Shown here: positions 4,282 to 51,635 of the stretch, piece after piece
Layout of the letters: each line of letters starts with the position of its first letter
How positions within the stretch are numbered: position 1 is the first letter of the stretch
DNA from: Leucobacter sp. 7(1)
GTDB lineage: Bacteria > Actinomycetota > Actinomycetes > Actinomycetales > Microbacteriaceae
Assembly: GCF_900163635.1 (NCBI RefSeq)
Contig: NZ_FUID01000005.1
Span: 1 to 64,000 of the forward strand
Direction of reading: 5' to 3'
DNA: 64,000 nucleotides
Made by a program: the position numbers and the translations under genes
The notes under the pieces: generated by a model
What the model saw: the letters and a program-made list of their open reading frames with translations, nothing else
What the model was told of the DNA's origin: nothing
Database searches by the model: none

Positions 4282-5277
4282 ATGAAAATCGAGCTGGTAA
4301 CGCTACGACAGATCGAACGTGAGAAAGAGATTCCGTTCGACGAACTTGTCGAGATTATTGAGCAGGCCATCCAAACCGCGTACCTGCGTCACGCGGAAAA
4401 CCAGAACCTTCCGGTGCCCCGCGAATCTGATGTGCGGGTGACTCTGGACCGGAAGACCGGGGAGATCTCCGTGCTCGTCCCCGAGCTCGATGACGATGAG
4501 CAGGTCATTGGTGAGGCCTACGTCACGACCGACGAGTTTGGTCGGGTCGCCTCGAGCGCCGCCAAGCAGGTCATTAACCAGCGGTTGCGTGATCTGAGCG
4601 ATGACGCAGTCCTCGGGACCTTCAAGGATCGTGAAGGCCAGATCGTTTCTGGTGTTGTGCAGCAGGGACCCAACCCGCGCATGGTGCACGTTGACCTGGG
4701 GGAGCTCGAAGCGATCCTGCCTCCCGAAGAGCAGATTGCCGGCGAGAAGTACCCGCACGGCATGCGCATCCGCGTGTATGTCACGAGCGTCTCCAAGGGA
4801 ACCAAGGGTCCGCAGGTGATCGTGTCTCGTACTCACCCGGGCCTCGTGCGGAAGCTGTTCGAACGGGAAGTTCCGGAGCTCGCCGAAGGCCTCGTCGAGA
4901 TCGTATCGCTGGCCCGCGAGGCCGGACACCGCTCGAAGGTCGCCGTGCGTGCCAAGCAGCCCGGAATCAACGCGAAGGGCACCTGCATTGGCGAGATGGG
5001 GGGCCGCGTTCGCGCCGTCATGGCTGAGCTGGGGGAGGAGAAGATCGACATCGTCGACTACTCGCCCGAGCTGCCGAAGTTTGTCGCAAACGCCCTGTCG
5101 CCTGCGAAGGTCACCGATGTGTTCATGCTGAATGAGTCCCTGAAGCAGGTCCGCGCCTTGGTTCCCGACTTCCAGCTCTCGCTGGCGATCGGCAAGGAAG
5201 GCCAGAACGCCCGCCTTGCCGCGAAACTGACTGGCGCGAAGATCGACATCCAGCCCGACTCGATCATGAACGACTAG
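4282..5277 (+). CDS. nusA: Transcription termination/antitermination factor NusA
   Basis: NusA binds RNA polymerase and nascent RNA and modulates pausing, termination and antitermination. The 331-residue protein has the RNAP-binding N-terminal domain (about 1-115), an S1 domain (about 120-190), then two KH domains (about 200-325, including VSRTHPGLVRKLFEREVPE and LAIGKEGQNARLAAKL). It lacks the acidic repeats of the enterobacterial protein, as is usual in actinobacteria. The ATG at 4282 follows AGAGGAGG. The last 45 coding bases form one arm of a 19-bp inverted repeat with sequence past the stop, and the end of the gene is partly repeated again at 5430. ylxR and infB follow. Confidence 0.97.
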   Translation: MKIELVTLRQIEREKEIPFDELVEIIEQAIQTAYLRHAENQNLPVPRESDVRVTLDRKTGEISVLVPELDDDEQVIGEAYVTTDEFGRVASSAAKQVINQRLRDLSDDAVLGTFKDREGQIVSGVVQQGPNPRMVHVDLGELEAILPPEEQIAGEKYPHGMRIRVYVTSVSKGTKGPQVIVSRTHPGLVRKLFEREVPELAEGLVEIVSLAREAGHRSKVAVRAKQPGINAKGTCIGEMGGRVRAVMAELGEEKIDIVDYSPELPKFVANALSPAKVTDVFMLNESLKQVRALVPDFQLSLAIGKEGQNARLAAKLTGAKIDIQPDSIMND

Positions 5278-5303
5278 CACTCCTTGGATGTCGATCTTCG
5301 CGC
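5234..5303 (+). repeat. 19-bp inverted repeat spanning the nusA stop codon
   Basis: Arm 5234-5252 lies in the nusA coding sequence, and arm 5285-5303 is its perfect reverse complement 8 bases after the stop. The 32-base spacer contains the stop codon. A degenerate further copy of the downstream arm sits at about 5465-5481. There is no T tract, so it is not a canonical terminator. Confidence 0.9.
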
Positions 5304-5647
5304 GTTTCACGGAAGGGCGAAGCCCTGACGTGGAACGTCCGTATGGCCGACATCCAGCCGGCGCGGATCCCTTGGGCGGGAACGCGTCAGCGTTCTCGTG
5401 GGATTCGCGGTGACGCCACTGCGTCACATCATGAACGACTAACTCTCCGTTCCCACACCCGGTCGAGATGTCAATTTCGCACCTTTCGTGATCTGAAAAG
5501 GAGCGCGATTGGCTTCTCGATCGGGAAGCGGCAGCGAAGGAGCGGGTGCGCGACACGCGTGCATCTTGCGTACGACACGCGGCGACTTGCTGAGCGTTGC
5601 ACGCGCGCTGGGCGAACGGCACGAGGAAGAAGTAGGAAGCTGGTAAG
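5278..5647. other. 370-bp nusA-ylxR gap with hairpin modules and copied nusA end
   Basis: No gene is supported here. The gap holds the inverted copy of the nusA end (5285-5303) and a 12-base direct copy of CGACATCCAGCC (5348-5359). Two hairpins follow: 5380-5395 (GAACGC, loop GTCA, GCGTTC) and 5410-5427 (GTGACGC, loop CACT, GCGTCAC). Next come a 12-base direct copy of the nusA terminus (CATGAACGACTA, 5430-5441) and a diverged inverted copy (5465-5481). The two hairpins sit between the CGACATCCAGCC and CATGAACGACTA copies, which are 9 bases apart in nusA but 70 apart here. The same hairpin types occur beyond tRNA-Thr and hmuT. Confidence 0.8.
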
Positions 5648-5905
5648 ATGGATGCGGTTCGGACCTGTGTTGCGTGCCGCGCGCGTGATTCGCGCGAGGC
5701 GCTCCTTCGGGTAGTGATGCATGATGGGCAACTTTGCGTTGACGATCGTGCGGCGCTTCCCGGAAGGGGTTCGTGGGTACACCCCACGGCCGAGTGTCTG
5801 AAACTGGCAATGACTCGCGGAGCCTTTCCGCGGGCGTTGCGTGTGTCGGGGAAGCCCGACGCAAGCCCTTTAGAGAACAGGCTGAAAACACACATGGACA
5901 ACTAA
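5648..5905 (+). CDS. ylxR: YlxR (DUF448) family protein
   Basis: This 85-residue protein carries the family signatures RTCVACR near the N terminus and PGRGSWVHP in the middle. YlxR proteins sit in the nusA-infB cluster; in other bacteria they bind nucleic acid and one has been reported to modulate RNase P. The ATG at 5648 is preceded by AGGAAG. The gap to the infB start is 74 bases, consistent with co-transcription. Length and motif content are normal. The unusual feature is its separation from nusA by the 370-bp repeat region. Confidence 0.92.
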   Translation: MDAVRTCVACRARDSREALLRVVMHDGQLCVDDRAALPGRGSWVHPTAECLKLAMTRGAFPRALRVSGKPDASPLENRLKTHMDN

Positions 5906-5979
5906 TGAGCGGCTCACGATGAGACCCGTCCAGTAATTTTGGTTCTCGCCTGTCTGGCGTGAACCCAGACAGGAGAAAA

Positions 5980-8763
5980 GTGGCTAACCCACGCGTACAC
6001 GAGATCGCTGCGGAGATCGGTGTCGACAGTAAGGTCGTTCTGGCCAAGCTGAAAGAAATGGGCGAGTTCGTGAAAGCGTCCTCGTCAAGCGTTGCACCCC
6101 CGGTTGCACGCAAGGTCAAGGCAGCTCTTGCTGCTGACGGTGTGACCGGCTCTGCCGGCAGCGCACCCGCTGCGCCGGCGGCACCCGCCGCCCCGAAGCG
6201 CCCGGCTGGCCAGAAGCCCGGCCCCCGGCCCGGCCCGAAGCCCGCTGCGGCACCGGCCCCTGAGCCTGAAGCACCCGCTGCTCCCGAGGTTCCCGCTGCA
6301 CCCGCCGCGGCACCCTCGACGCCGGCTGCGCCTGCTCAGAATGATGCACAGCCTGCTGCGGCAACGCCCGGCGCGGCAAAGCCTGCTTCCCCGGCAAAGC
6401 CCGGCGCGGCAAAGCCTGCTTCCCCGGCAAAGCCCGGTGGCAAGGATGCTCCCAAGCCCGGCGGCCCGCGCCCCGGCAATAACCCCTTCGCGTCGAGCCA
6501 GGGCATGGGTATTCCGCGCCCGCCCCGTCCGGGCAACAACCCGTTCAACTCGAACCAGGGCATGCCTCGCCCCGGTGGTGGCGCAGGTCGCCCGAACCCG
6601 GGCAACATCCCCCGTCCTTCGCCGCGTCCGGCACCCGGCGCAGCCGGTGCGGGTCGCCCCGGCGGTCCCGGTCGTCCGGGTGGCGGCGGTCGTCCCGGTG
6701 GCGGCGGTGGCTTTAACCGCCCGGGCGGCGGCGGTGGCGGCGCAGGTGCCGGTGCTCCCGGTACCGGTTTCGCGGGTCCCCGTCCCGGTGGCGGGTTCGC
6801 AGGCCGTGGCCGTGGCGGCCGTGGTGCGGGCACCGCAGGCGCGTTTGGTCGTGGCGGCTCCAAGAGCAAGGCACGCAAGTCGAAGCGGGCGAAGCGCGCA
6901 GAATTCGAGATGCGCGAGGCCCCGTCACTTGGCGGCGTGAGCGTACCCCGGGGCAACGGGTCGACAATGATCCGTCTGCGCCGTGGTGCATCGCTGAGCG
7001 ACTTCGCGGACAAGATCAACACGAGTGCTTCGAACCTGGTGACCGTGCTGTTCCACCTCGGCGAGATGGCAACGGCTACGGAGTCGCTCGACGAGGCGAC
7101 GTTCCAGATCCTCGGCGAGGAACTGGGCTACCGGATCCAGGTAGTGTCGCCCGAGGACGAGGATCGCGAGCTGCTCGAGGGCTTCGATATCGATATCGAG
7201 AGCGAGCTTGAAGAAGAGGGCGACGACGTGCTGCAGGCGCGTCCGCCGGTTGTCACCGTCATGGGTCACGTTGACCACGGCAAGACCCGACTCCTCGACG
7301 CGATCCGTAAGGCAAACGTGGGCGGCGGTGAGGCCGGCGGCATCACCCAGCACATCGGTGCCTACCAGGTCCACACCGAGCACGACGGTATTGATCGCGC
7401 GCTCACCTTCATCGATACCCCGGGTCACGAGGCGTTCACCGCGATGCGTGCTCGTGGTGCGCAGGTCACCGATATCGCGATCCTCGTGGTCGCCGCGGAT
7501 GACGGCATCATGCCGCAGACGATTGAGGCCCTGAACCACGCGCAGTCGGCCAACGTGCCGATTGTTGTCGCGGTCAACAAGATCGATAAGGAAGGCGCGA
7601 ACCCGGAGAAGGTGCGTCAGCAGCTCACCGAGTTTGGTCTCGTGTCCGAGGAATGGGGCGGCGACGTCATGTTCCGCGATGTTTCGGCGAAGAACAACGT
7701 CGGCATCAACGAGCTCCTCGACGCTGTGCTCCTCACGGCTGACGCGGGTCTTGACCTGCGTGCAAACCCGGACAAGGACGCGCGCGGTGTCGCGATTGAA
7801 GCGAAGCTCGATAAGGGCCGCGGCTCGGTCGCAACCGTCCTCATCCAATCGGGTACGCTCCGCGTGGGCGACGCGATCGTTGCGGGCACGGCGTACGGCC
7901 GCGTTCGTGCGATGCACGACGAGAACGGCGATCCAGTACTGGAAGCGCTTCCCTCGCGTCCCGTTTCGGTGCAGGGCCTCTCGAGCGTTCCCCGTGCAGG
8001 CGACAACTTCATCGTGACGCCCGAGGACCGCACGGCTCGCCAGATCGCTGAGAAGCGTGAGGCCGCTGAGCGCAACGCGATGCTCGCCAAGGCGCGCAAG
8101 CGGATCAGCCTGGAAGAGTTCACGAAGGCGCTCGAGGATGGCAAGGTTGAGTCGCTCAACCTCATCATCAAGGGTGATGTGTCGGGTGCCGTTGAGGCGC
8201 TTGAGGAATCGCTCATGAAGATCGAGGTCGACGATTCGGTTCAGCTCCGGATCCTGCACCGCGGTGTGGGTGCGATCACCGAGTCGGACGTGGATCTTGC
8301 CACGATCGACAACGCGATTGTCATCGGCTTCAACGTGCGTCCGGATGTTAAGGCTCGCGAGCGCGCAGCGCGCGAGGGCATCGACATTCGCTTCTACAAC
8401 GTCATCTACAACGCGCTCGATGACATTGAGGGTGCGCTCAAGGGCATGCTCAAGCCTGAGTACGAAGAGAAGCAGTCCGGTGTTGCGGAGGTCCGCGAGG
8501 TCTTCCGTTCGTCGAAGTTCGGCAACATCGCGGGTGTCATCGTTCGCTCCGGCACGATCACGCGTAACGCGAAGGCTCGCGTCATCCGTGAGGGTGTTGT
8601 TGTTGCCGACGGCCTGGCCATCGAGTCGCTGCGCCGCTTCAAGGACGACGTCACCGAGGTGAAGACGGACTTCGAGGCTGGTATCGGCCTCGGCAAGCAC
8701 AACGACATCCAGATCGGCGACGAGATCGAGACGACTGAGATGGTGGAGAAGCCGCGCGACTAG
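5980..8763 (+). CDS. infB: Translation initiation factor IF-2
   Basis: IF-2 is a GTPase that positions fMet-tRNA on the 30S subunit. I take the GTG at 5980 as the start because it follows AGGAGA and gives the family N terminus (M)[13 protein letters not shown]; an upstream in-frame GTG at 5959 lacks a ribosome site. The 927-residue product has an IF2-N helical domain (1-50), a long Ala/Pro/Gly-rich linker (about 60-300) with a tandem repeat containing KPASPAKPG and then Gly-Arg-Pro runs, a second IF2-N domain (about 330-385), and the G domain from about 428 ([18 protein letters not shown]). Domains II, III and the C-terminal tRNA-binding domain follow. Such extended linkers are common in actinobacteria. 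Confidence 0.97.
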
Positions 8764-8782
8764 TGCGAGGCTGATCGACACG

Positions 8783-8819
8783 GCGAGGGCCTGGCTGGGA
8801 TTTCCAGCCCGGCCCTCGC
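8783..8819 (+). terminator. Hairpin terminator after infB
   Basis: A long GC-rich stem-loop has outer arms GCGAGGGC and GCCCTCGC and an inner CTGG/CCAG extension. It starts 19 bases after the infB stop. It has no obvious T tract. Confidence 0.7.
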
Positions 8820-8955
8820 TGCGTTGCGGGCGCGACGTAGGTAGGCATTTGCAGTAGGGGTCCTGGTGTGCAACTATGCAAAACCAATGGGCGGCGTCTA
8901 GAGTAGGGCGCGGTGGGGAACTACCGCCATCTCTCCTTGAAAGGGCAGACCGCTC

Positions 8956-9642
8956 ATGTCGCTCACTCACGCGCGCCTCTCCGCGCAACGCATCACGGTG
9001 CTCTCGCTTGTCACCGCACTTGTGTTGTCGATGCTCACCATCTTCAGCGCGCCGTCCGCGTTCGCGGAGGAGCGTGGGGGTGAAAGGACATATCCGCAGG
9101 TGCAGACCGATGTGCTCCCGAACACGGAGGGCGAAGGGGCTGAGCCTGTGGTCCCAGCGGATGGCCAGGATGCGGCCCCCGACGCGAGTACTGACCAGCC
9201 GGCCCCGCCGGTGCCGGGTGTCGATGGATACCCCGTAGAGCGCGATCAGCCTGCGTCGCACCTCGCCGAACCGGAGGTGCCGGCGACCCCACGCGCCGAA
9301 GACCTGACGTTTTCGCAGGCCGACGATAGCCTGCTGAGCGGCACGGTGACGCTTCCCAGCGCTGCGGCGGGAGACGAGCCACGCTGGTTTGCATCATTGG
9401 TGGTGACCGCGTGGAGCGAGGCGGAAGGCTCCTACTGGTCTGCGGTGGACGAGTCCGGTGCGTTCGCGTTTGCCGACCTTCCCGAGGGGGACTTCAGTGT
9501 CCGAGTCGAGAGCTCGACGAGTCTGGATCCCGAGGCAGCGCCTGCGCTGCTCGGGCCGCGTGGTGGAACTCACAACTGCTGCACGCGCACCGTGTTGCCT
9601 GCCGGATCGCGGAACGCGAAGTCGCGAGTGCCCCAGTCCTGA
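8956..9642 (+). pseudogene. Truncated secreted protein (carboxypeptidase-regulatory-like domain)
   Basis: The 228-residue product begins with a clear Sec signal peptide (cleavage near AFA-EE, residue 37). A Pro/Glu/Asp-rich linker follows, then one beta-sandwich-like module (SGTVTLP to FADLPEGDFSVRVESS, about 125-190) of the kind used in surface proteins. About 15 residues later the frame runs into the 3' part of the convergent VOC gene, and the last 25 residues are simply that gene read backwards. Surface proteins with this module normally continue with more modules and a wall or membrane anchor, none of which is present. I infer a 3' truncation by rearrangement near 9560. It could still yield a secreted fragment. 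Start ATG with GAAAGGG upstream. Confidence 0.6.
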
Positions 9643-9977
9643 TCCATGGGCTCCTGCAGGATCTCGGTACCGGCGGCCTCGATCCGTGTGAACAGCGGCT
9701 CGAGCTCGTCGGTAGCGAACACAACCGAGGCGTACGAGCCCTTCGCGATGAGTTCGGCAATGACGCGCCGTTCCTCATCGGTGAGGCCCGGGTCCACCGC
9801 GGGCGGGCTGAGCACGATCGAGGTGTCCGGCTGGTTCTTCGGGCCGACAGTCAGCCAGCGCATGTCGCCGTAGCCGACATCGTTGCGCAGCTCGAAGCCG
9901 AGTACGTCTCGGTAGAAGGTGAGCGACGCTTCGGCGTCGGTGTATGGCAAGAAAGTGACGTGGATGTTGATGTTCAT
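9570..9977 (-). CDS. VOC-family (glyoxalase/bleomycin-resistance-like) protein
   Basis: This 135-residue single-domain protein of the vicinal oxygen chelate superfamily has beta-alpha-beta modules including LTFYRDVLGFELRND near the start and a C-terminal FAFRDPAGNTVRVQQL, with a metal-ligand type Glu/His pattern that is only partly conserved. The substrate is unknown; relatives include glyoxalase I and antibiotic-sequestering proteins. I choose the ATG at 9977, although a GTG at 9986 is possible. The AraC-type gene ends 10 bases upstream, so the two are probably one operon with the regulator first. Its 3' end overlaps the truncated secreted gene on the other strand. Confidence 0.85.
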   Translation of the reverse strand: MNINIHVTFLPYTDAEASLTFYRDVLGFELRNDVGYGDMRWLTVGPKNQPDTSIVLSPPAVDPGLTDEERRVIAELIAKGSYASVVFATDELEPLFTRIEAAGTEILQEPMDQDWGTRDFAFRDPAGNTVRVQQL

Positions 9978-9987
9978 GCCGGCCACG

Positions 9988-10428
9988 CTACTCCGAGCCC
10001 ACGCCAGGAACTTCTCGATTCCTGACCGGTTTGGTGGCGCGCAGCGTCACGATCCCGGGGAGTCCCGTGAGCGGTCCGCCGCCCTCGCGCCGGTATCGTC
10101 CGGGGGACATCCCGACGAGCTCCGTGAAGCGCGTCGTGAAGGTGCCGAGCGAGCCGTAACCCACTGCGAAACACACTTCGGTGACGGAGAGGTCGCCGCG
10201 TCGTAGGAGTGTCATCGCGCGCTCGATCCGGCGCGTCATGAGATAGCTGTACGGGGATTCTCCGTACGCGGCGCTGAATTCGCGACTGAGGTGTCCTGCA
10301 GACATCCCCACGCCCCGTCCCAGCTCGGCGACGTCGAGCGGCTCGGCGTAGTCGCGGTCGATGCGGTCGCGAACACGTCGCAGCAAACGGAGCGCCTGGA
10401 GGTGCCTGGCATCAGCCGCGGTGCTCAT
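9988..10428 (-). CDS. AraC-family transcriptional regulator (short form)
   Basis: The protein is 146 residues and consists essentially of the C-terminal AraC DNA-binding domain: two helix-turn-helix motifs ([23 protein letters not shown] and [25 protein letters not shown]). There is no sensory N-terminal domain, so any effector or partner is unknown. The start is an ATG behind GGGGG. It sits directly upstream of the VOC gene, the usual arrangement for a local regulator of a small detoxification operon. It diverges from rbfA with a gap of 59 bases. Confidence 0.88.
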
Positions 10429-10487
10429 GCCCCCATCTTATGCGCGAGGCAGACCGTCCTTGGCTGCTCACGGCTAAGATAGGGGGT

Positions 10488-10925: not shown

Positions 10926-10935
10926 TCGCCGATTG

Positions 10936-38659: not shown

Positions 38660-39616
38660 ATGGCAAGCGAGAACACCGGTCGTCTGACCAAGAACGAGCG
38701 ACGCACTCAGGCGCGCGAACAGGCGCGCAAGGCCCGTGAACAGGAGAAGAAGCGGGAGAAGCGCAACCGCCTCTTCCTGCAGGGAGGCATCGTTATCGGT
38801 GTCCTCGCGATCCTCGGGATCGTGGCCCTCGTCCTGACGCAGACCATGAAGCCCGCGGGCCCCGGCCCGGAGAACATGGCCTCCGGTGGTGTGGTGTTCA
38901 CGAAGGACCTGAAGGTCGTTGAAGGTCCCGCGCTCGAATCGGGGGCGGAGCGTGAAGCACGCACCGTCAACCGTGACGAGCTGCCGCTCGACGTCACGGT
39001 CTACGCCGACTACATGTGCCCCGCTTGTGGCGCGTTCGAGCAGCAGTACGGCACCATGCTCGAAAACTACGTCGGCGCTGGCGACATTGAGCTCGAGATT
39101 TACCCGCTGAACTTCCTCGACGGTGCATCACTCGGTTCGAAGTACTCGACACGCGCGGGCAACCTGCTTGCCTGCGTCGTCGAAGAGCAGCCCGACGTTG
39201 CCTTTGCGTTGCATACCCGACTCCTGAGCCCCGAGGTGCAGCCGAAGGAAGGCACCACCGGGTTGAGCGATGAGCAGCTCCTGGAAGAGGCCGAGGCGGC
39301 CGGCGCGAAGCTCACACCCGAACTGCGTTCCTGCGTGCAGGACGTGACGTTCGGCAGCTTCATCTCCGCGAACTACAAGTCCGCGAGCGAGACCGGCATC
39401 AAGGGACTCGCCGATGGCGCGCTCATGCTGAGCGCCGACGGTGCCACCCCGCAGCCCGCCGACGGACCGCAGCGTCTCGTCTCCACACCGACCGTCATTG
39501 TCAATGGTCAGCAGTGGAACCAGGCCCGCGACGGCGACCTCGAATCGTACCTCCTGAAGGTCAAGGGCGAGTACGAACAGGCGCAGGAGAAGTCCGACGC
39601 CAAAAAATCTGAGTAG
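38660..39616 (+). CDS. Membrane-anchored DsbA-family thiol-disulfide protein
   Basis: The 318-residue protein has a highly charged cytoplasmic N terminus (about 1-38, Lys/Arg/Glu coiled-coil-like), one transmembrane helix (about 39-63) and an extracellular thioredoxin-fold domain. That domain has the active site CPAC (DYMCPACGAFEQQYG) and the cis-Pro loop VSTPTVIVNG near the end. It fits the actinobacterial DsbA/MdbA-like group that introduces or isomerises disulfides in exported proteins. It follows secA by 60 bases and may be co-transcribed, with a hairpin terminator after it. Confidence 0.88.
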   Translation: MASENTGRLTKNERRTQAREQARKAREQEKKREKRNRLFLQGGIVIGVLAILGIVALVLTQTMKPAGPGPENMASGGVVFTKDLKVVEGPALESGAEREARTVNRDELPLDVTVYADYMCPACGAFEQQYGTMLENYVGAGDIELEIYPLNFLDGASLGSKYSTRAGNLLACVVEEQPDVAFALHTRLLSPEVQPKEGTTGLSDEQLLEEAEAAGAKLTPELRSCVQDVTFGSFISANYKSASETGIKGLADGALMLSADGATPQPADGPQRLVSTPTVIVNGQQWNQARDGDLESYLLKVKGEYEQAQEKSDAKKSE

Positions 39617-39626
39617 ACTTACTCAC

Positions 39627-39650
39627 GGGGCGGTCGCGTACGGCCGCCCC
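39627..39650 (+). terminator. Hairpin terminator between dsbA-like gene and tRNA-Thr
   Basis: A 7-bp GC stem GGGGCGG/CCGCCCC with a 10-base loop lies 10 bases after the stop. Confidence 0.7.
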
Positions 39651-39654
39651 ACTT

Positions 39655-39730
39655 GCCGCCTTAGCTCATCTGGTAGAGCAGCGCCCTTGTAAAGCGCAGG
39701 TGATCGGTTCGAGTCCGATAGGCGGCTCCA
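39655..39730 (+). tRNA. tRNA-Thr (anticodon TGT), CCA encoded
   Basis: A 76-base cloverleaf with acceptor arm GCCGCCT pairing to AGGCGGC, D-arm with GGTAGAGC, anticodon loop CTTGTAA, T-arm GATCGGTTCGAGTCCGATA-like and an encoded 3' CCA after a T discriminator. The innermost anticodon-stem pair is a C-A mismatch. The last 21 bases are copied at 39855-39875 with one mismatch. Confidence 0.95.
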
Positions 39731-39732
39731 GT

Positions 39733-39757
39733 AAGGCCCCGCTCCGCGGGGCCTTTT
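39733..39757 (+). terminator. Terminator of tRNA-Thr
   Basis: A 9-bp stem AAGGCCCCG/CGGGGCCTT is followed by TT and begins 3 bases after the encoded CCA. Confidence 0.9.
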
Positions 39758-39871
39758 GCGTGTCGCCGGCTATCGGGCTTTGAACCGATTCCGGCGAAGC
39801 CAACTTCGCCGGCTTGCCGCGCGCAACGCTTCGCCTTGCCCGGAGCGCGGCAAGCGAGTCCGATAGGCGGT

Positions 39872-40050
39872 TCCAGCAAGAAAACGCGAAGCGTTTTCGG
39901 CCGGAGTCGGTGCCGCCACTGCGGCACTTGCAGATGAGCACTGCCGCGAAGCGTCCTGTTTCCAGCAAGAAAACGCGTAGCGTTTTCGGCCGGGGTCGGT
40001 GCCGCCACTGCGGCGCTTGCAGATCAGCACTGCCACGAAGCGTCCTGCTC
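39872..40050 (+). repeat. Two tandem ~88-bp hairpin-module repeats
   Basis: Copies start with TCCAGCAAGAAAACGCG at about 39872 and 39961 and differ at only a handful of positions. Each contains hairpin A (AAAACGC..GCGTTTT; 39881-39897 and 39970-39986) and hairpin B (GTGCCGC, loop CACT, GCGGCAC; 39910-39927 and 39999-40016). The second hairpin B has one A-to-G change that turns a T-A pair into a G-T wobble. Both hairpin types also occur after nusA, and hairpin A after hmuT. Confidence 0.9.
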
Positions 40051-40144
40051 CAGGGTGGCTCCGCTCCCATCGCTACCCCTCCCGCTACCCCTCCCGCTCC
40101 CTCTGCCTCCTCTGCCTCCTCTGCCTCCTCTCCAGCTTGGTATC

Positions 40145-40458
40145 GCGTCGAGACCGCGATTGTGCGCGTTATCCACGCGCGGTAGGTGCGAGATTGCGTT
40201 CTCGGCGGAGCCTGCCGGGTGGGTGAGCGGGAAAAGGTCAAGAAGGGGAGTGGGGATGGGCCCAGGGTGGCCCGGACGACGCCCCGCCGAGATCGCGATC
40301 TTGGGCGTAGGTGCGGCCGGCCCGGTGCGTGATCGCGTTCTCAATGGGGCTTCTCACTCCCACCCACCCACACACACACCTCCAGGGTGATACCCCGCCG
40401 AGATCCCGATTCTGCGCGTTCGTAGCGCGAGATACGTGCGAGATTGCGTTCTCGGCGG
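40145..40458. repeat. Three ~64-bp units with terminal inverted repeats
   Basis: Units lie at about 40145-40208, 40282-40349 and 40393-40458. The best preserved (40395-40458) begins CCGCCGAGA and ends TCTCGGCGG, a 9-bp terminal inverted repeat. Units 1 and 3 share GTGCGAGATTGCGTTCTCGG and the following CTGCCGGGTGGGTGA. Unit 2 is more diverged. Confidence 0.75.
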
Positions 40459-40574
40459 AGCTGCCGGGTGGGTGAATGGGGATAGGGGTAAGAGGTAGGG
40501 AGGGGAGGGGGCGTCAGGGAAGACAGGACGGCACCTCGTACATGGGTATCGCGCGAGGCGAGTAGGGTAGCGGG

Positions 40575-44280: not shown

Positions 44281-44289
44281 AGTAATGCT

Positions 44290-44333: not shown

Positions 44334-44360
44334 TGTCGGTGGGGGATGAAACTCCCGCAC

Positions 44361-44485: not shown

Positions 44486-46933
44486 ATGCACGCACGGAAC
44501 GTGTTCCGCGGATTGGCCGCGGCGGCGCTGTCGACAGCGCTCGTCATTGGTGGGGCGGTGGGAGAACCTGCATTCGCAGAGGAATCGGTTATCGGTGACT
44601 CGCAGCAGATAGACCCCGCGAACTCTGTCTCTGTGGAGAACGCTACCGATGTCAGTGAGGCTGAAGTGCCCAGCGAAAGCCCGGAAGCGCCGCAGGGCGG
44701 TGCTGAAGTCGTCGAACCGGGGAATCCTGGGAAAGCTCCTGAGCTCAGTTTCAAGGATGGCGACGTGGAAGCGGAGAATCCAGCGCCGGAACTCCAAGGT
44801 CCGGTCCCCGAGAGCGAAACCAATTCCGCGGTGACCTCCGCAGCGGAGGCACCAGACCTCCCAACGGAGCCCGTGGCCGGACCTGAAAACGTGAAGATTC
44901 AGTTCGAGGCATCCGTCGCCCCGAAGAAAAGCCTTGAGGTTCAGGTGTCCGCGAGTGGCTTTCCAGCGGGCGTGACTGACCTCTCCGCGGCGCTCATTCC
45001 TCAGGGAGACACCGCCGTGCTCACCGGGCCGACGGATCGGATTCCGGCTCTGGCCAAACCCCTGCCTCGTGTGACCGATGGAGCTTCGAGCTTTGTACTC
45101 ACCGCCGCTGTTTCACAGCTTGTGCGTGCAGCGCAGTACGAAATCGTGCTGTGGCCAAGCGATGAGAAGCCCGCGCAGTCGAATATCTTCGCGCGTGTTG
45201 ACCTAAAGCTTTCCTCAGGGGAATGGGACCAGCTGCTTGGGCCGGTTCCCCCGGTCGCCGAGGAAGGCAGCATCAGCTGGGGTGTGCTTGAGCGGTTCCG
45301 GAACTACGTGGAGACCAAAGCCGGGCCGAAGGGAAAGGTGTCCGCAACCAAGCCAGCCTCGTACAACGGAAAACTGTTCACTTTTCCGCAGGTAACCGGT
45401 GGAAAATGGGGCGCAGGAACGCAGCGCGGCGTGGCACAGTATGGAGGTTCGATGCGTTTCTATGGGCACAACGGGGGCCTTGACCTCAATATGTCCAACC
45501 CCGTGATTCGGGTCATCGACTCGAAACGGGCTGAGCTCTCCGTGACGACTACGTCAGTTGAACTGGATATGGAATCCGAACGTGACCCTGTGATCAAAGA
45601 GAGCGTTGATGTGATCGCGTCTATTGACCTCTCATCGGCGACGTCGACGACTCGAAAAGGTGGTGCGATCCGGTGGGCGAACGCGAACGCGACGCTGACC
45701 ACTGCCGGCGTTGACGTTTTTCAGGGGTTCTATAGCGAAGGACAGCCGCTTGATTTGATCACCTTTACGGTTGGCTCAGAACGTGATGTGAAGCCGATAA
45801 CGCCCCCGAAGCCGAAGCCGGTTCCGAAACCCAAGCCCAAGCCGGTCCCGAAGCCGCTTCCGCCCACGGTTGTGGACGGGAACGCGGGCGGTGCGCAGGC
45901 TGCTGGCTCGCTGAGCTGGGGCGTCTCGAGCGCTTTCTCCAAGTACGTGACAGGCCCGATTGCCAAGGGCGAGGTTGCCACGAGCGGGGTGGGCAGTTCC
46001 GGTGGCGGCTACCTCTTCCCACAGGCCGCGGGCGGCAGCTGGGACACGGCGACCCAGACGGGTTCCGTGCAGTACTCCGGCGTCATCTCCTTCACCGGCC
46101 ACAAAGGTCTCCTCAGCGAAAGCATGAGCAACCCGATGATCCAGGTCACCGGGCCCGATTCCGCTGTGATCTACAACGGTGGATCGCAGTGGGGCACCCT
46201 GAACCTCGCCGCAGCTGCAAAGTCGGTGGGTGCCAATGGTGAGGTGACCTGGAGCGGCGTCCCTGTGAGCGGTGGCTTCTCCGGAGGCGCGTCGGGCGGA
46301 AGCCAGTACACCCTCGCCGCCGACCCACTGACATTCACCGTCGGCACCGCGAGCGGTGTGAGCTACGGCTCCACCGCCGTGAGCAACGATTCCCTCAAGC
46401 GGACCGCTGCCGCTTCCGCTCCGACGACGAGCGGGATCCGGATCCTCACCGACCCGAAGAAGCTGGTGCCGGGCGGCGAGATCGAGCTTGAAGCCCCGGG
46501 CTTCACCGCGAAGGAACGCGAAGCGCTTGTGGTGCTCTACCCTGGCGTGATCGTGCTGGACGAAGCCGCAGGCGCGGATACTTCCGGCACTGTGCGCTGG
46601 CTCGGAACGATCCCCGAGGATCTGCCGCTCGGTGAGTACGTGATCACCGTGCAGGGCAGTACCGACGCCGGTGCCGTTCTCGAGGTTCGCAAGCCGGAAC
46701 CGAAGGCGAAGGCTGCCGCGAAGCAACAGCGCGTGGCCGAGCTTGCCGCGCAACAGGAAGCCGGCGCGCCAGCCGCAGCCGGAGTGGTTCCTGCCGCAGA
46801 CGACCAGGCCGCATGGATGTGGTGGGCGGCATCGATCGGACTGCTTGCGGTGGCCGGCGTCATGGGTGGTCTCGTTGTAGGGCAGCGCCGAAAGGCCGCC
46901 GCGGGAAACACCCCGCCCGGATCCGGCTTCTAA
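44486..46933 (+). CDS. htaA: HtaA-domain haem-binding surface protein (two HtaA domains)
   Basis: The 815-residue protein has a signal peptide (about 1-32), an acidic Pro/Glu linker (about 35-135) and an Ig-like domain shared with the preceding gene product (about 145-255). Two HtaA domains follow, at about 262-435 (SWGVLERFRNYV..GTQRGVAQYGGSMRFYGHNGGLDLNMSNP) and 472-640 (SWGVSSAFSKYV..GSVQYSGVISFTGHKGLLSESMSNP). A KPKPVPKPKPK spacer lies between them, then another Ig-like domain (about 650-735) and a C-terminal helix with RRK. HtaA proteins of corynebacteria bind haem or haemoglobin at the envelope and pass haem to HmuT. ATG at 44486 follows AGGGAG. Confidence 0.9.
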   Translation: MHARNVFRGLAAAALSTALVIGGAVGEPAFAEESVIGDSQQIDPANSVSVENATDVSEAEVPSESPEAPQGGAEVVEPGNPGKAPELSFKDGDVEAENPAPELQGPVPESETNSAVTSAAEAPDLPTEPVAGPENVKIQFEASVAPKKSLEVQVSASGFPAGVTDLSAALIPQGDTAVLTGPTDRIPALAKPLPRVTDGASSFVLTAAVSQLVRAAQYEIVLWPSDEKPAQSNIFARVDLKLSSGEWDQLLGPVPPVAEEGSISWGVLERFRNYVETKAGPKGKVSATKPASYNGKLFTFPQVTGGKWGAGTQRGVAQYGGSMRFYGHNGGLDLNMSNPVIRVIDSKRAELSVTTTSVELDMESERDPVIKESVDVIASIDLSSATSTTRKGGAIRWANANATLTTAGVDVFQGFYSEGQPLDLITFTVGSERDVKPITPPKPKPVPKPKPKPVPKPLPPTVVDGNAGGAQAAGSLSWGVSSAFSKYVTGPIAKGEVATSGVGSSGGGYLFPQAAGGSWDTATQTGSVQYSGVISFTGHKGLLSESMSNPMIQVTGPDSAVIYNGGSQWGTLNLAAAAKSVGANGEVTWSGVPVSGGFSGGASGGSQYTLAADPLTFTVGTASGVSYGSTAVSNDSLKRTAAASAPTTSGIRILTDPKKLVPGGEIELEAPGFTAKEREALVVLYPGVIVLDEAAGADTSGTVRWLGTIPEDLPLGEYVITVQGSTDAGAVLEVRKPEPKAKAAAKQQRVAELAAQQEAGAPAAAGVVPAADDQAAWMWWAASIGLLAVAGVMGGLVVGQRRKAAAGNTPPGSGF

Positions 46934-46951
46934 CACCATCACGTATCGTTG

Positions 46952-46986
46952 GTGCGGGCGTCCCTGCCACGGGAACGCCGCCGCAC
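46952..46986 (+). terminator. Intergenic hairpin between the two HtaA genes
   Basis: An imperfect GC-rich stem (GGTGCGGGCGTCCC against GGGAACGCC..CGCACC) lies 19 bases after the htaA stop. It may reduce read-through or protect the upstream message. Confidence 0.5.
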
Positions 46987-47009
46987 CCCGCAACACAAGG
47001 AGATCAGAC

Positions 47010-47936
47010 GTGCAGAACTCTCACGACCTCGGGCGCCGGACCGCGCGACGTACCCTCGCGCTGGTGGGAGGCGGATTGATTGCGGCCGGAGCGCTGCTCG
47101 TGCCAACCGCGGCCACCGCAGCTCCCGCCGTTCTTGCACAAGCGGCCCCCGTTGCCGCGACGGCAGAAACGTCGTGCACGGTGAGCACCGGGATGCTGAC
47201 CTGGGGCGTCAAGGAGAGCTTCCGCTCATACATCAGTGGCTCCATCGCCAACGGTGAGTGGACCGTGAGCGAGGACATGCGCTACGAGACCCCCAGCTTT
47301 ATCTGGGACCAGGTCACCGGGGCTGTGTCGAGTGACCTCACCGCGGGCAACATTGCGTTCACTGGCGCGATCCACTTCACCGGTCACAGCGGCGCAATGG
47401 AGCTGGACCTGTCGGATCCGAAGATCGAGTTCACGGACGATGACACCGCCTACCTGACGCTCACCATCGGCGCGACCGACGCCGCGGATGCCGGCGGGGA
47501 GGCCACTGCGGAGACGCTGCGTGCCGCAAAGATCGATCTGACAGACGCGGTCTCGGCCGGCGGATCCGAGCTGTCACTCGAGAGCGCGATCCCGCGCCTC
47601 ACCGCAGAGGGTGCCGCGGCACTGAACGGAGAGTACGGCAGTTATGTCGCGGGGGAGGAACTCGACCCGATTGCGCTCACCGCAACCGTGACCGGCTGCG
47701 AGCTCGGGGAGAGCGCCGCTGTGGTCATGCCCGAGACCGAGCTGCCCGGTGATCCGACCCCCGCCCCCGGCGTGACCGACACAGAGAGCGCCGCTCCGTC
47801 GATCCCGTGGCTGCCGATCGGCATCGGTGCCGTGGCGCTCCTCGTCATTGGTGTGACCGGCGGCATGCTGCTGGGTGGACGCAAACGCCCGAGCGCGCAG
47901 CAGTCCGAAACCGATCCCGGGACCGACACACACTAG
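47010..47936 (+). CDS. Single-HtaA-domain membrane-anchored haem-binding protein
   Basis: The 308-residue protein starts at a GTG behind AAGGAGA. It has a signal peptide (about 1-45), one HtaA domain (about 52-230: LTWGVKESFRSYISGSIANG, IHFTGHSGAMELDLSDPKI), a Pro-rich spacer, and a C-terminal helix (about 267-290) followed by GGRKRPS. This is the layout of the smaller HtaA/HtaB proteins of corynebacterial haem systems, which relay haem across the wall. It lies downstream of the two-domain gene and next to the hmuV end. Confidence 0.9.
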   Translation: MQNSHDLGRRTARRTLALVGGGLIAAGALLVPTAATAAPAVLAQAAPVAATAETSCTVSTGMLTWGVKESFRSYISGSIANGEWTVSEDMRYETPSFIWDQVTGAVSSDLTAGNIAFTGAIHFTGHSGAMELDLSDPKIEFTDDDTAYLTLTIGATDAADAGGEATAETLRAAKIDLTDAVSAGGSELSLESAIPRLTAEGAAALNGEYGSYVAGEELDPIALTATVTGCELGESAAVVMPETELPGDPTPAPGVTDTESAAPSIPWLPIGIGAVALLVIGVTGGMLLGGRKRPSAQQSETDPGTDTH

Positions 47937-47985
47937 TCCGGTGCTCGGGCGCAGCCCGGTTTGCGTCGACCTGACCCCTTGAGCG

Positions 47986-48054
47986 CGAGACGACCCCGAA
48001 ACTGCAGGAATATCTGCGGCTTCGGGGTCGTCTCGAAGTTTCGGGGTCGTCTCG
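47986..48054. repeat. Palindromic intergenic repeat with 15-bp arms, three copies
   Basis: CGAGACGACCCCGAA (47986-48000) is the perfect reverse complement of TTCGGGGTCGTCTCG at 48021-48035, and a third copy is at 48040-48054. The first two enclose a smaller CTGCAG/CTGCGG hairpin. It lies between convergent genes, so it could serve as a two-way terminator, and it has the look of a REP-type element. Confidence 0.85.
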
Positions 48055-48089
48055 TGGAGAGGCCCCTGAAGCTGTGGGGCTGTGCCGTG

Positions 48090-48905
48090 CTAGGACCGCT
48101 TCGGCATAACGATCCCCTGCCCGGTGATGGGGTGGGGGATCACCTCGACCGGGGTCCGGTAGACCTCGCTGACGATCTCGGCCGTCAGTACTTTCGCCGG
48201 CGCATCACAGGCGTAGACCTTCCCATCACGCAGCAGTGCGATCCGGTCGGCATACGCCGCGGCGAGGTTCAGATCGTGCAGCACGACAAGGACAGCGTCC
48301 CCGGCCATCGCGCGTTCTCGTGCCAGTCCCAGAACCGCCTCCTGGTGCCCCAGATCCAGCGCAGCTGTGGGCTCATCGAGCATCAGCACCCCGGTGCGGC
48401 CCGCGATCACACGTGCAAACGCGGTGCGGGCACGCTCGCCACCTGAGAGTGACGGAACCCGGCGATTGCCGAGGTGAGCAATGTCGGCGGAGGCAATGGC
48501 CTCGGAGATGGCCTCGTTGTCCTCGTCTTCGAGTGGAGTCTTGCGCCACGGCGCGCGACCCATCTCGACAACCTGGTGCACCGTGAACGGGAACAAAAGC
48601 TGATTGTCTTGCAAGAGCACGCTGCGGCGACGCGAGAGCTCTCCCAGCGACCAGTCGGCGATGGGCCGACCGCCAAACCGAGCCACGCCGGAATCAGCTG
48701 CGACGTCGCCCGAGAGCACACTCAGCAGTGTCGACTTGCCGGCACCGTTCGGGCCCAGGAGGGCGAGCACTTCACCGGCGCGAACCTCGAGCGAGACCTG
48801 ATCGAGCAGGGCGCGACCGCCACGCTTCAGACCGACGTTTTCGGCAGCACACACAACATCGCCCGTGGTTGCATGAGTCGGCAGAGCCACATGCCGCGCG
48901 CTCAT
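48090..48905 (-). CDS. hmuV: Haem ABC transporter ATP-binding protein
   Basis: The 271-residue ATPase has Walker A (LLGPNGAGKSTLLS), a Q-loop (LLQDNQLLFPF), signature LSGGERARTAFARVI, Walker B (VLMLDEPTAALD) and a switch His (VLVVLHDLNLAAAYADR). This is the FecE/HmuV pattern for iron-chelate and haem importers. It is preceded by the permease, whose stop overlaps its start by 4 bases. Haem rather than siderophore or cobalamin is inferred from the HtaA neighbours. Confidence 0.9.
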   Translation of the reverse strand: MSARHVALPTHATTGDVVCAAENVGLKRGGRALLDQVSLEVRAGEVLALLGPNGAGKSTLLSVLSGDVAADSGVARFGGRPIADWSLGELSRRRSVLLQDNQLLFPFTVHQVVEMGRAPWRKTPLEDEDNEAISEAIASADIAHLGNRRVPSLSGGERARTAFARVIAGRTGVLMLDEPTAALDLGHQEAVLGLARERAMAGDAVLVVLHDLNLAAAYADRIALLRDGKVYACDAPAKVLTAEIVSEVYRTPVEVIPHPITGQGIVMPKRS

Positions 48906-49969
48906 CCCCAGCCTCCACTTCGTTTGCGAGTTCGTCGGAGCAGCCAGAAGAAGAACGGTCCACCAACGATCGCGGTGAGCATGCCGATCGGCATATCGGC
49001 CATGGGAACGAGCGTGCGGGCTGCCAGATCCGCCAGGGTCAGCAACAGCGCGCCGCCGAGGGCGCTTGCCGTGACAAGCGGGAGGTGTGCGGGGCCGAGG
49101 ACCATGCGCATCAGGTGCGGGATCACAAGCCCGACGAACGAGATGATGCCAGCGAAGGCGACCGCGGCGCCGACAAGAAGGGCGACGACAAAGATCATGA
49201 CGATGCGGAGCGCCTCGACGTTGACACCCAGGTGCCGAGCGTTGCGCTCGCCGAGCGCGAGCAGGTCGAGCTTGTGCGCCGCGATATATGCGGCGAGCAG
49301 CCCGACCGCGATGATGGGAGCGATGATCAGCACCTGCGACCAGCGGCTGCCCGCGAGGCTGCCGAGCTGCCAGAAGACGATCTGCTCGCGTGACTGGGTA
49401 TCGCCGAGGAACGTGAGGAGCGCGATCCCGGCCCCACCGATGGCGTTGACCGCGATACCGGTGAGGACGAGGGTGACGACCTCGGTTTTGCCGTCAGCGC
49501 GACTCATCGCGTACACGATGAGTGTCGCCCCGAGGCCGAAAATGAAAGCAAGAACTGCCGTGGTCCACTCGCCGAAGATGGTGAGGCCGAAGACGATTGC
49601 GAGCCCCGCACCGACTGCCGCACCGGATGAAATGCCGATGACGCCAGGCTCGGCGAGCGGGTTACCGAAGATCGCCTGCATGAGGAGACCGGACACTGCG
49701 AGCCCCGCACCCACGAGTGCCGCCATGGAAACCCGTGGGAACCGGATCGCCCAAAGAGTTTGGTCGCCGGCGGGATGCGTTGGCATTGGCAGCCAGTCGA
49801 TGCCGATGCGGTGCAGCAGGGACCCGAGCACCTCTTGCGGCGGCACTCCGAGCTGGCCAGTTCCCGCCGAAATGAGGAGCGATACAACGAGGGCGATGCC
49901 GAGCGAGGCGAACAGGATCGTCGTCTTCGCGGCGTGCCGGGAACCGGTCCGTTTCAATTGGGCAGTCAT
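48902..49969 (-). CDS. hmuU: Haem ABC transporter permease (FecCD family)
   Basis: The 355-residue permease has about ten helices with family landmarks RFPRVSMAALVGAGLAVSGLLMQAIFGNPLAEPGVIGISSGA (in segments) and the EAA-like loop GFVGLVIPHL-type segment ISFVGLVIPHLMRMVLG. It forms the membrane pore with HmuV. It diverges from hmuT; the shared 210-base upstream region contains an iron box. Confidence 0.9.
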   Translation of the reverse strand: MTAQLKRTGSRHAAKTTILFASLGIALVVSLLISAGTGQLGVPPQEVLGSLLHRIGIDWLPMPTHPAGDQTLWAIRFPRVSMAALVGAGLAVSGLLMQAIFGNPLAEPGVIGISSGAAVGAGLAIVFGLTIFGEWTTAVLAFIFGLGATLIVYAMSRADGKTEVVTLVLTGIAVNAIGGAGIALLTFLGDTQSREQIVFWQLGSLAGSRWSQVLIIAPIIAVGLLAAYIAAHKLDLLALGERNARHLGVNVEALRIVMIFVVALLVGAAVAFAGIISFVGLVIPHLMRMVLGPAHLPLVTASALGGALLLTLADLAARTLVPMADMPIGMLTAIVGGPFFFWLLRRTRKRSGGWG

Positions 49970-50077
49970 GCGTGCGAAGGACAGCTTTCGTGAGAGTTCG
50001 TGGGTCAGGATCCCGAGCGCGCACCCGCGCCGAGCGCCACGTCCCCGCGACGACCCTTTGGCTTCATCATACCTTCA

Positions 50078-50096
50078 CTAGGTTAGACTTACCCCC
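50078..50096. promoter_or_regulatory. DtxR/IdeR-type iron box between hmuU and hmuT
   Basis: CTAGGTTAGACTTACCCCC matches 13 of 19 consensus positions, with the left half nearly perfect. It is placed between the divergent transporter genes and could repress both. Confidence 0.6.
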
Positions 50097-50179
50097 GCTG
50101 GCGTACGGGAAATGTGCAGGGGCATATGATGCCTGCTGCGCTGTCTGACCTGCTGCTCCTGCAGATTCGAAGGGACCTC

Positions 50180-51307
50180 ATGCACACGTTCCGCGGTACG
50201 CGCGCTCGTCGCGCGCTCGCTCTCGTCACTGTCGCGCTGCTCGGACTCGGGCTGACTGCTTGCCAAAGTGGGAGCGCGTCCGTCGGCCTGGAAAGCGCCG
50301 AGTCCGTTGAACTTCCACCGATCTCGGAACTGACTCCCGCGCCGGATCCGCGCAACATTGAGGGCCCGACGACGGCGCTCATCGGTGGACCCTCAATTGC
50401 CCCGGTCGCCGACGCACCCGCGCCGGAGCTGCCGGCAACGGTAACCTCGCATGACCGCTCAGGCGATACCGAGGTGACGGTAACGGATACCTCGCGCGTG
50501 CTCGCGCTGTCGTTGAGTGGCTCACTCGGTGAGCTTGTGCACGCGTATGGGATGTCTGATCAGTTGGTGGGACGCGACATCTCGACGAACTTCCCAGGCT
50601 CGGAGGATCTCCCCATTGTGACTCGGGACGGGCACTCCATCGATGCGGAGGGCGTACTTGGCCTGAGCCCCACGGTGATCCTCACCGATGGATCGATCGG
50701 CCCCACCGACGTTGTGTTGCAGATGCGTGACGCTGGGATTCCGGTGATCACGGTGGATCGCGCGGTTGATGCGGCGACGACGTTCGTGACGGCGCAGCAG
50801 GTTGCGGATGCCCTGGGTGTTCCGGAATCGGCCCCGCCACTGATCGACACCCTGCAAGCGGCGATCTCCGCCAAAGAAGCGGAAGTCGCAACGCTGCTGC
50901 CCGAGGATCCCGAGAAGCTGCCCCGCGTTGCGTTTCTGTACGTGCGTGGAACCTCGGGGATCTACTACCTGTTCGGCGAGGGGAGCGGCGTCGATAGTTT
51001 GATTCGCTCCATCGGGGCGCTCGATGTGGCGGCCGAGATTGGGTGGAAGGGCGAAAAGCCGATGACTGACGAAGCGCTCATCGCGATCGACCCAGACGTG
51101 ATCCTCGTCATGACCAAGGGGCTGGAGAGCGCCGGCGGTGTTGACGGTCTTTTGGAGGCGCAGCCGAGCATCGCGCTCACTACTGCGGGCAAGAACCGTC
51201 GGATCATCGATGTGGATGACACACTCTTGTTTGCCGGTGGCACGCGCATCCCGGACGTGATCGACGGCCTCGCCCGCGCGGTGTATGCACCGGATTCGCT
51301 ACAGTAA
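50180..51307 (+). CDS. hmuT: Haem ABC transporter substrate-binding lipoprotein
   Basis: The 375-residue lipoprotein starts at ATG 50180 (GAAGGGA upstream) and has a lipobox LTAC with Cys28. A variable linker follows, then the FecB/BtuF-type two-lobe binding domain (LALSLSGSLGELVHAYGMSDQLVGRDISTNFPG at about 105-140, in segments; GVDSLIRSIGALDVAAEIGWKGEKPMTDEALIAIDPDVILVM in the second lobe). The transporter genes diverge from it. HmuT receives haem from HtaA proteins in corynebacteria. The last 15 bases of the gene and its stop form part of a hairpin and are copied 85 bases downstream. Confidence 0.9.
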   Translation: MHTFRGTRARRALALVTVALLGLGLTACQSGSASVGLESAESVELPPISELTPAPDPRNIEGPTTALIGGPSIAPVADAPAPELPATVTSHDRSGDTEVTVTDTSRVLALSLSGSLGELVHAYGMSDQLVGRDISTNFPGSEDLPIVTRDGHSIDAEGVLGLSPTVILTDGSIGPTDVVLQMRDAGIPVITVDRAVDAATTFVTAQQVADALGVPESAPPLIDTLQAAISAKEAEVATLLPEDPEKLPRVAFLYVRGTSGIYYLFGEGSGVDSLIRSIGALDVAAEIGWKGEKPMTDEALIAIDPDVILVMTKGLESAGGVDGLLEAQPSIALTTAGKNRRIIDVDDTLLFAGGTRIPDVIDGLARAVYAPDSLQ

Positions 51308-51333
51308 CGCGCCAGCGTTACGCGATCCGGTGC
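51287..51333 (+). repeat. Composite hairpin across the hmuT stop codon
   Basis: The outer stem pairs GCACCGGATTCGC (51287-51299, coding) with GCGATCCGGTGC (51322-51333). The inner stem is GTAACGC-GCCA-GCGTTAC (51304-51321) and includes the stop codon. Confidence 0.8.
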
Positions 51334-51635
51334 TGGGTGCGCGTGCGCGCACAGCCGACGGGCGTAGCCCGGAGGATGATTCGCTACAGTAACGCGCGCG
51401 TCCCGCTCACATGAAAACGCGTCAGCGTTTTCTTGCGGGTCGCGCCGGGGCCATTACCCCGGTACGCGATCCGGTGCTGGGTGCGCGTGCACGCCCAGCC
51501 GACGGGCGTCCCCGGACCAAAGTGACGCCCATTCGGAGTGGATCCACCGTCCTGGCAGGAACCACGTTGTACTGTAGGGGCTGATCCTGCGGTTTCTTCG
51601 TGGCGATCCACCACAGACTGATCGAGGAGAACCGC
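51308..51635. other. 328-bp gap after hmuT with duplicated gene end and hairpins
   Basis: No gene is supported. The 20-base end of hmuT (51293-51312) is repeated exactly at 51378-51397. A 46-base segment containing the inverted copy (51320-51365) recurs at 51464-51509 with three mismatches. Between them are hairpin A (AAAACGC-GTCA-GCGTTTT, 51414-51431) and CCGGGG/CCCCGG (51445-51462). The final 90 bases before the next start look ordinary and probably hold its promoter. Confidence 0.8.

Follow-up and report, generated by a model that had tools for sequence, protein, structure and literature searches.

Small repeats of several kinds provide the closest comparisons for the element described here. 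The double-hairpin elements (DHE) of fungal mitochondria consist of two adjacent small hairpins and spread with a conserved fold and a loose sequence, and we know of none that has a gene-end complementary arm or a duplicated gene end. Tandem inversion duplications have a direct-inverted-direct order. RHE are described from sponges (PMC2800124). Rickettsia palindromic elements (RPE) are described in PMC10969869 as palindromic sequences of ~150 bp that form ten families and lie in frame inside protein genes. REPs are 20-40 bp long and carry a tetranucleotide tag, and PMC3733652 leaves open how CGTC REPs move. The subject of this work is element M, a structured repeat of ~66 nt (~60-66) that stands at the 3′ ends of nusA, a tRNA-Thr gene, and an hmuT-like gene in 64,000 nt of DNA from Leucobacter sp. 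7(1) (contig NZ_FUID01000005.1, positions 1 to 64,000, forward strand; this whole stretch is called the window below). M is, on balance, probably a small non-autonomous, structured mobile repeat of Leucobacter with an unusual way of docking at gene ends.

M works like a REP, an RPE, or a double-hairpin repeat, but it fails the REP/RAYT features examined, and its unusual part is the combination of a gene-end arm with a duplicated gene end. Several M copies occupy frames that stay open and keep a coding bias before and after the element, and in this M may resemble the in-frame RPE. Size and host set M apart from that family: M has ~66 nt, prefers gene ends where host codons supply one arm, and resides in Leucobacter. 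M shares with the REP group (GTAG/CGTC palindromes, REPIN, BIME) short hairpins that are scattered and sit nested in further palindromic repeats; unlike REP/RAYT systems, it occurs in a genus without Y1 proteins in the 54 genomes searched, and it has two distinct hairpins plus a variable stem fitted to the host gene. M is not a single 20-40 nt palindrome with a GTAG/CGTC tag, judging by its ~66-nt two-hairpin fold (the ends were not scanned separately for GTAG/CGTC). The resemblance to DHE lies in two neighboring small hairpins that spread with a kept fold and a loose sequence, although DHE are mitochondrial. M also shares the direct-inverted-direct order of tandem inversion duplications, which have no conserved hairpin, bulge, or family. 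The titles and abstract openings listed on double-hairpin elements, REP/RAYT in Microbacteriaceae and Actinobacteria, RPE, tandem inversion duplications, and palindromic repeats of Leucobacter contain no description of M. Rfam at gathering scores found only tRNA in the window and eight loci, with no known structured RNA matching M, which agrees with an initial annotation of the window that knew of no named element with this build. Because M sits at gene ends and often has the last bases of the gene as one side of its hairpin, it suggests a type of small mobile repeat, adapted to such ends, that has not been described before.

Fold and Covariation of Element M

M folds into an outer stem of 10 bp, a 4-nt bulge confined to the 5′ side, and a 10-bp inner stem capped by AACGC-loop-GCGTT; the outer 3′ arm is followed directly by a second hairpin of 7 bp with the loop YACY. 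The initial annotation, made from the sequence alone, had recognized the inner tip and the second hairpin as hairpins A and B. Both are real, but they are parts of one larger element whose 4-nt bulge and outer stem had been overlooked. Hairpin A (AACGC-N3/4-GCGTT) occurs five times in the window as annotated, at 5381, 39883, 39972, 51306, and 51416 (the starts had been placed 1-2 nt too low), where 0.30 occurrences are expected and 0 of 100 shuffles reach five. The hairpin B core (GTGNCGCCACTGCGNC) likewise occurs at the three places given, 5410, 39910, and 39999, with an expectation of 0.00. All three window sites carry M, and in the hmuT copy hairpin B differs in sequence (CGGGGCCATTACCCCG). 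Fold z scores of the window copies are about -5.8 at nusA, -4.4 at hmuT, and -3.7 and -2.4 for the two units at tRNA-Thr.

Covariation in this fold is strong. In a MAFFT alignment of eight copies, 91.7% of the cells at paired positions are paired, and two-sided changes occur at 20 of the 27 pairs; 0 of 500 shuffles scored as high on paired percentage, two-sided changes, or covariation score, and 1 of 500 did so on pair types. A covariance model built from these eight copies (R1) was run over the window and 88 loci, which had been picked for an R1 match from the matches listed (30 + 60 fetched, minus 2 repeating the window; others were not fetched), and it returned 112 copies, both tRNA-Thr units included. 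Across these, 94.1% of 2938 pair cells are paired, 26 of 27 pairs have two-sided changes, and 701 cells are doubly changed vs 183 in shuffles, while sliding the partner by 1-3 columns lowers pairing to 31-46%. The 112-row alignment is model-fitted and includes six training copies, which makes the eight-row count cleaner. In size, the pairing effect far exceeds the shuffle and slide controls.

Among 81 nonredundant copies, the bulge reads TCAG in 25 and TTAG in 9 and is 4 or 5 nt long in 80 (model-fitted alignment), the tip loop is ATC in 29, and the loop of hairpin B is CACT in 34 and CACC in 19. A one-sided bulge in 80 of 81 copies argues against the idea that one arm was blindly copied from its partner, and it is here that a purely mutational origin has to be considered. 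Template switching at gene-end hairpins would create the inverted copies and slippage the direct copies, giving a micro tandem-inversion-duplication, and hairpin correction would match the arms without selection. This account would explain why direct, inverted, and direct copies follow one another as in a tandem inversion duplication, why the direct copies track the gene end, and why repeat junctions are flush and arrays form. Blind copying or correction, however, would fill the unpartnered bulge, and the account sits poorly with a hairpin A and a hairpin B loop common to unrelated loci and with a family nearly limited to one genus. We regard a purely mutational product as very unlikely. Selection for structure, which the initial annotation took from the compensated changes, is likely, and the near-constant one-sided bulge argues for it; it falls short of proof, as arm-to-arm copying could also match changes.

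Mispairs on the sense strand of the same 81 copies are G-T in 51 cases vs A-C in 27 (p 0.004), a count affected by the covariance model's own preference for G-U; by part, the numbers are 31 vs 7 in the outer arm and 7 vs 2 in hairpin B. The excess of G-T over A-C favors a form in which the sense strand stands alone, as RNA or as one strand of DNA, rather than a symmetric cruciform. A scan with the sequence pattern GGTGNCGCYACYGCGNCAC (at most one mismatch) hit 26 of 41 genomes, yet a reversed control was about as frequent, so that the scan served merely as a seed for the structure model.

Placement at Gene Ends

The position of M relative to genes was counted on 92 first-of-array copies after 20 downstream tandem copies had been dropped from the 112. 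An upstream gene on the same strand, defined by an open frame whose third codon positions are biased toward G+C, could be called at 33 of the 92. At 15 of these 33 sites, the stop codon falls in the bulge, at M offset 10-12, against 0.22 expected from random positions (17 of 2560 called ones have it at 10-12). Elsewhere, it lies at offset 16-17 in six sites, at 25-49 in five, and beyond M in seven. The 33 sites are not independent, since orthologous genes recur. Host genes encode Iso_dh (icd-like), HD/HD_assoc (dGTPase-like), ATP-synthase epsilon (atpC), prephenate dehydratase, an AMP-binding enzyme, GHMP kinase, PPK2, class-III aminotransferase, NusA, and DUF4193 proteins. Together with covariation, the stop-codon counts bear out the annotated idea of a structured family recurring at gene 3′ ends with compensated changes.

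The DUF4193 genes show how the two halves of M relate. All 54 orthologs end in C[ARV]EC plus 1-2 residues, and the complementary arm tracks the codons of each species by eye. The 5′ half of M is therefore the gene's own coding sequence, to which the 3′ half fits. A larger model, R2, finds M at the DUF4193 gene end in 25 of the 54 orthologs, with a weak match 58 nt downstream in G045 counted as being without M.

A second copy of the gene end is the other distinctive feature. The initial annotation had described a gene end, an inverted copy, and a direct copy at nusA, tRNA-Thr, and hmuT, and all are present, the inverted copy at hmuT being seen in the fold. More widely, a direct copy of the gene end (score of at least 8) follows 29 of the 92 first copies, compared with 1.0% of 1753 mismatched comparisons; the share is 15/26 where the stop codon lies in M, 1/7 inside open reading frames (ORFs), and 13/59 for the others. 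Of the 29 direct copies, 22 start at arm position 5-6, with zero bases between the copy and hairpin B. Tandem arrays mostly repeat such a unit of ~60-62 nt, and the tRNA-Thr pair is spaced 89 nt. A detector for direct plus inverted copies, applied to the window together with 40 stretches of G000 and G009, reported 13 triples at a score of at least 24 vs 0 in one shuffled set. Several of these are coding repeats, and nusA alone of the three window sites is among them; the detector thus supports the gene-end module weakly.

Direct copies that restore tRNA and gene ends recall the sites of integrases, and M might be a remnant attL/attR pair left where integrative elements had been excised from tRNA and gene ends. 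Such remnants would yield no inverted copy, no conserved two-hairpin fold, and no copies inside ORFs or within other repeats, and we consider this origin extremely improbable. Modules of similar build are borne by tRNA-Gly and tRNA-Gln of G009; after the latter gene (L049:16520-16840), a palindrome that includes the last 3 nt of the tRNA occurs three times with hairpin linkers between.

At 31 Leucobacter nusA loci, an inverted copy of the gene end is present in 14, a direct copy in 13, and both in 13, the full module missing in 18. At 48 other nusA loci, nearly all from other Microbacteriaceae genera, the corresponding numbers are 5, 3, and 3. One nusA locus (L268) and one DUF4193 locus were too short and were left out of these comparisons. 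The three nusA loci of the 48 with both inverted and direct copies are from Leifsonia (L280 from Leifsonia shinshuensis, L283, and L293). In L248 and L257 (L. luti and L. ruminantium), the nusA gene-end module stands in tandem as a long unit downstream of nusA.

Distribution, Nesting, and Turnover

Among named organisms, the nearest relatives of the window's nusA are Leucobacter, of the family Microbacteriaceae. R1 matches M in 41 of 54 Leucobacter genomes at E<=0.01, with 0 to 38 matches per genome. R2, which was used for the wider searches, matches 5 of 199 genomes of the family Microbacteriaceae, of which four are Leucobacter and the fifth belongs to a different genus. Across the phylum, it matches 1 of 396 genomes, namely that of the window itself. 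M is nearly confined to Leucobacter. The covariance search of the genome and its relatives that the initial annotation had proposed thus gave non-random placement at gene ends, 395 of 396 phylum genomes without a match, and strong covariation. The sole M outside Leucobacter among the 199 family genomes is L180:1501-1563 (G106), and the gene end upstream of it reads like the HD/HD_assoc gene end of L109. R2 matches the window's genome nine times, and these matches fall at five loci: three are in the window (nusA, tRNA-Thr with its two units, and hmuT), contig 62 has an array of four units at DUF4193, and contig 83 has one copy (L188) at a gene end resembling the Iso_dh gene end of L131.

Within genomes, M does seem to spread. 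Thirteen same-genome pairs among the 92 first copies are 78-94% alike, and their far flanks are unmatched (local scores 8-12). M is also nested in two other repeats (CGTCATCCTG..CGCAGGATC and GGTTGAG..GTCGAAACC), and it lies inside ORFs at ~1501-1565 of L087, L082, L130, L138, L151, and L152, where the frame is open with coding bias on both sides. In most in-ORF copies, the encoded peptide includes NASRS or a variant. The initial annotation had held that the family cannot be simple spread of one mobile sequence, given that the copied gene end differs at each site; similar copies at unrelated places in one genome, in other repeats, and in ORFs speak against that statement. The difference from site to site lies mainly in the outer stem of M, which tracks the host gene at gene ends. 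At L104:1441-1565 (G049), an M of opposite orientation sits inside the second hairpin of another gene-end module.

The turnover of M bears on whether it is instead a vertically kept control RNA of the 3′ untranslated region. Such an RNA would form mutually exclusive stems, gene end with inverted copy or inverted copy with direct copy, switched when a ribosome reaches the stop codon or when the tRNA folds, and would control readthrough or mRNA decay. The stop codon in the bulge, the sense-strand G-T bias of the outer arm, and the ability of the direct copy to pair with the inverted copy (by eye) all suit this role, as does the occupation of orthologous sites at DUF4193, icd-like, dGTPase-like, atpC, and nusA genes across several species. 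Vertical maintenance fits less well with the history of the nusA module. On a nusA tree from which the gene end had been omitted, its presence requires at least 10 changes, seven of them forced by well-supported branches, against a shuffled mean of 10.6. The module is as scattered as shuffled labels and has therefore been gained or lost quickly, and the 18 of 31 Leucobacter nusA loci without the full module and the copies in ORFs and other repeats count against a kept control RNA as well. No intrinsic terminator (G+C stem plus T run, threshold 5 T) was found in 39600-40100, which holds both tRNA-Thr units, despite terminator-like sequence seen by eye at about 39736-39759. A control RNA of this kind is unlikely.

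Two further comparisons of closely related genomes were set aside. Ag1 and OLIS6 were rejected as a clean empty/filled nusA pair because the intergenic region is too different. Codon changes between sister species at the icd-like, DUF4193, and nusA ends were too few and went in opposite directions, the icd-like end being faster and the nusA end slower.

Weighing a Proposed Mobile Repeat

If M is a mobile repeat, it would move as a single-stranded hairpin form (RNA or single-stranded DNA) handled by a putative enzyme and would settle where host sequence supplies the 5′ half, best in the last 10-25 nt of a gene. Insertion would add just hairpin B, the complementary arm before it, and a second copy of the gene end, so that the protein or tRNA would keep working. 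The direct copies would then drive tandem arrays, keep the gene end and its copy alike, and permit clean recombinational loss. Selection would keep the fold of M because the fold is what the mobilizer or a host factor would recognize. A bolder version has M reprogram itself on arrival by copying the end of the gene that it enters. The 3′ arm would be fresh antisense and the gene end would be remade after hairpin B through template-directed insertion at stop codons, carried out by a putative polymerase or nuclease from a single-stranded hairpin. We think such self-reprogramming quite unlikely.

A number of observations weigh against a mobile repeat docked at gene ends, and the first of them concern movement itself. 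Transposition of M is deduced from its copies, no event having been directly observed. The near flanks are also somewhat alike in 9 of the 13 same-genome pairs (a local score of at least 9 on a side), and a host repeat and M may therefore have moved as one. One clean 89-bp block, which contains a 28-nt direct duplication, sets the DUF4193 ends of the sister pair G025/G028 apart, yet recombinational loss between direct copies is as likely as fresh insertion because the shorter site retains the hairpin-A-like ACGCGCCAGC. No candidate mobilizer tracks M among those checked in the 54 genus genomes (Y1, reverse transcriptase, and IS110). RAYT/Y1 (PF01797) occurs in 0 of 54, with 5 of 14 control genomes positive; reverse transcriptase occurs in 8 of 54, with no tracking of M number by eye; and IS110 occurs in 17 of 54, being absent in the M-rich genomes G008 (38 M), G036, and G038. 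G044, with 24 M, carries 23 IS110. A MITE of a known transposase would share terminal inverted repeats with an autonomous element, whereas the ends of M, judged by eye, do not form an inverted repeat.

Other points on the same side concern docking and fold. Of the 92 first copies, 59 have no strong upstream coding call and only 33 could be placed against a gene, and 63 of the 92 have no direct copy at a score of at least 8. Of 53 testable DUF4193 loci, 19 show a significant inverted copy and 18 a direct one, but just 12 show both. Ser follows C.EC in 17 of 25 DUF4193 proteins with M vs 6 of 29 without it (relatedness uncorrected); M may select or reshape the gene end, and the DUF4193 end is not wholly independent of M. 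The inner stem has no G-T excess (13 G-T vs 18 A-C), and the in-ORF copy L126 is read in a different M frame from the rest.

Should the mobile-repeat reading hold, bacteria would have a class of mobile repeat that spares its host by using the stop-codon region of a gene as half of its structure and that also leaves a spare copy of the gene end. The 41 of 54 genomes form a natural genus-wide series on the movement of tiny repeats with no known transposase. The same series lets one ask how core genes (nusA, icd-like, atpC, prephenate dehydratase, DUF4193, and tRNAs) evolve at their coding 3′ ends beside a structural partner.

Features of the Window

Table 1. Positions of M and of the gene-end modules at the three window sites
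Feature	Position	Strand	Evidence or remark
nusA, host gene with mimicked 3′ end	4282..5277	+	Pfam NusA_N, KH_5
nusA gene-end stem: gene end 5234-5252, loop holding the stop codon, inverted copy 5285-5303	5234..5303	+	inverted copy of 19 nt, perfect
B-like linker hairpin of first-level nusA module, then GTCCGTAT	5304..5336	+	fold
nusA-end direct copy, piece 1 (CGACATCCAGCC)	5348..5359	+	
M inside nusA-end direct copy; hairpin A 5381-5394, hairpin B from 5410	5362..5427	+	R1 bits 80, E 2.4e-12, training sequence
nusA-end direct copy, piece 2, including stop codon	5428..5448	+	90%
tRNA-Thr(TGT)	39655..39730	+	ARAGORN, Rfam
Inverted copy of tRNA-Thr 3′ part (vs 39712-39726)	39765..39779	+	87%
Direct copy of tRNA-Thr 3′ end (39710 / 39855)	39855..39880	+	92% over 26 nt
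M unit 1	39868..39927	+	R1 E 7.6e-7, outside training set
M unit 2, tandem, 89-nt spacing	39957..40016	+	R1 E 4.6e-5, outside training set; direct-copy match 94%
hmuT-like periplasmic binding protein gene	50114..51307	+	Pfam Peripla_BP_2
hmuT gene-end stem, tip = hairpin A (51306-51319), one-sided bulge TACA	51287..51333	+	fold z -3.7
Second hairpin of first-level hmuT module	51334..51357	+	fold
hmuT-end direct copy (51293 / 51378), including stop codon	51378..51397	+	100% over 20 nt
M nested between direct copy and second inverted-end copy	51397..51462	+	R1 E 3.6e-11, training sequence
Second inverted-end copy and second hairpin	51460..51509	+	94% over 50 nt to 51316-51365

At nusA, the gene-end stem and linker hairpin together (5234-5345) have a fold z of -7.3, and linkers resembling this one are seen by eye at other Leucobacter nusA loci. 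The hmuT gene end pairs with its inverted copy in the predicted fold; the name hmuT is a label of the initial annotation, and Pfam supports Peripla_BP_2. At tRNA-Thr, the last part of the direct copy doubles as the 5′ arm of M unit 1. The terminator-like sequence noted above (GCCCCGC..GCGGGGCCTTTT), upstream of the M units, resembles by eye the tRNA's own terminator. At DUF4193 and tRNA-Thr there are M-related forms that have an additional hairpin (CCACGGAGCG.AGCG.GGG). Just downstream of the tRNA-Thr module, at 40176-40461, a 36-nt direct repeat (GTGCGAGATTGCGTTCTCGGCGGAG...) flanks an inverted copy.

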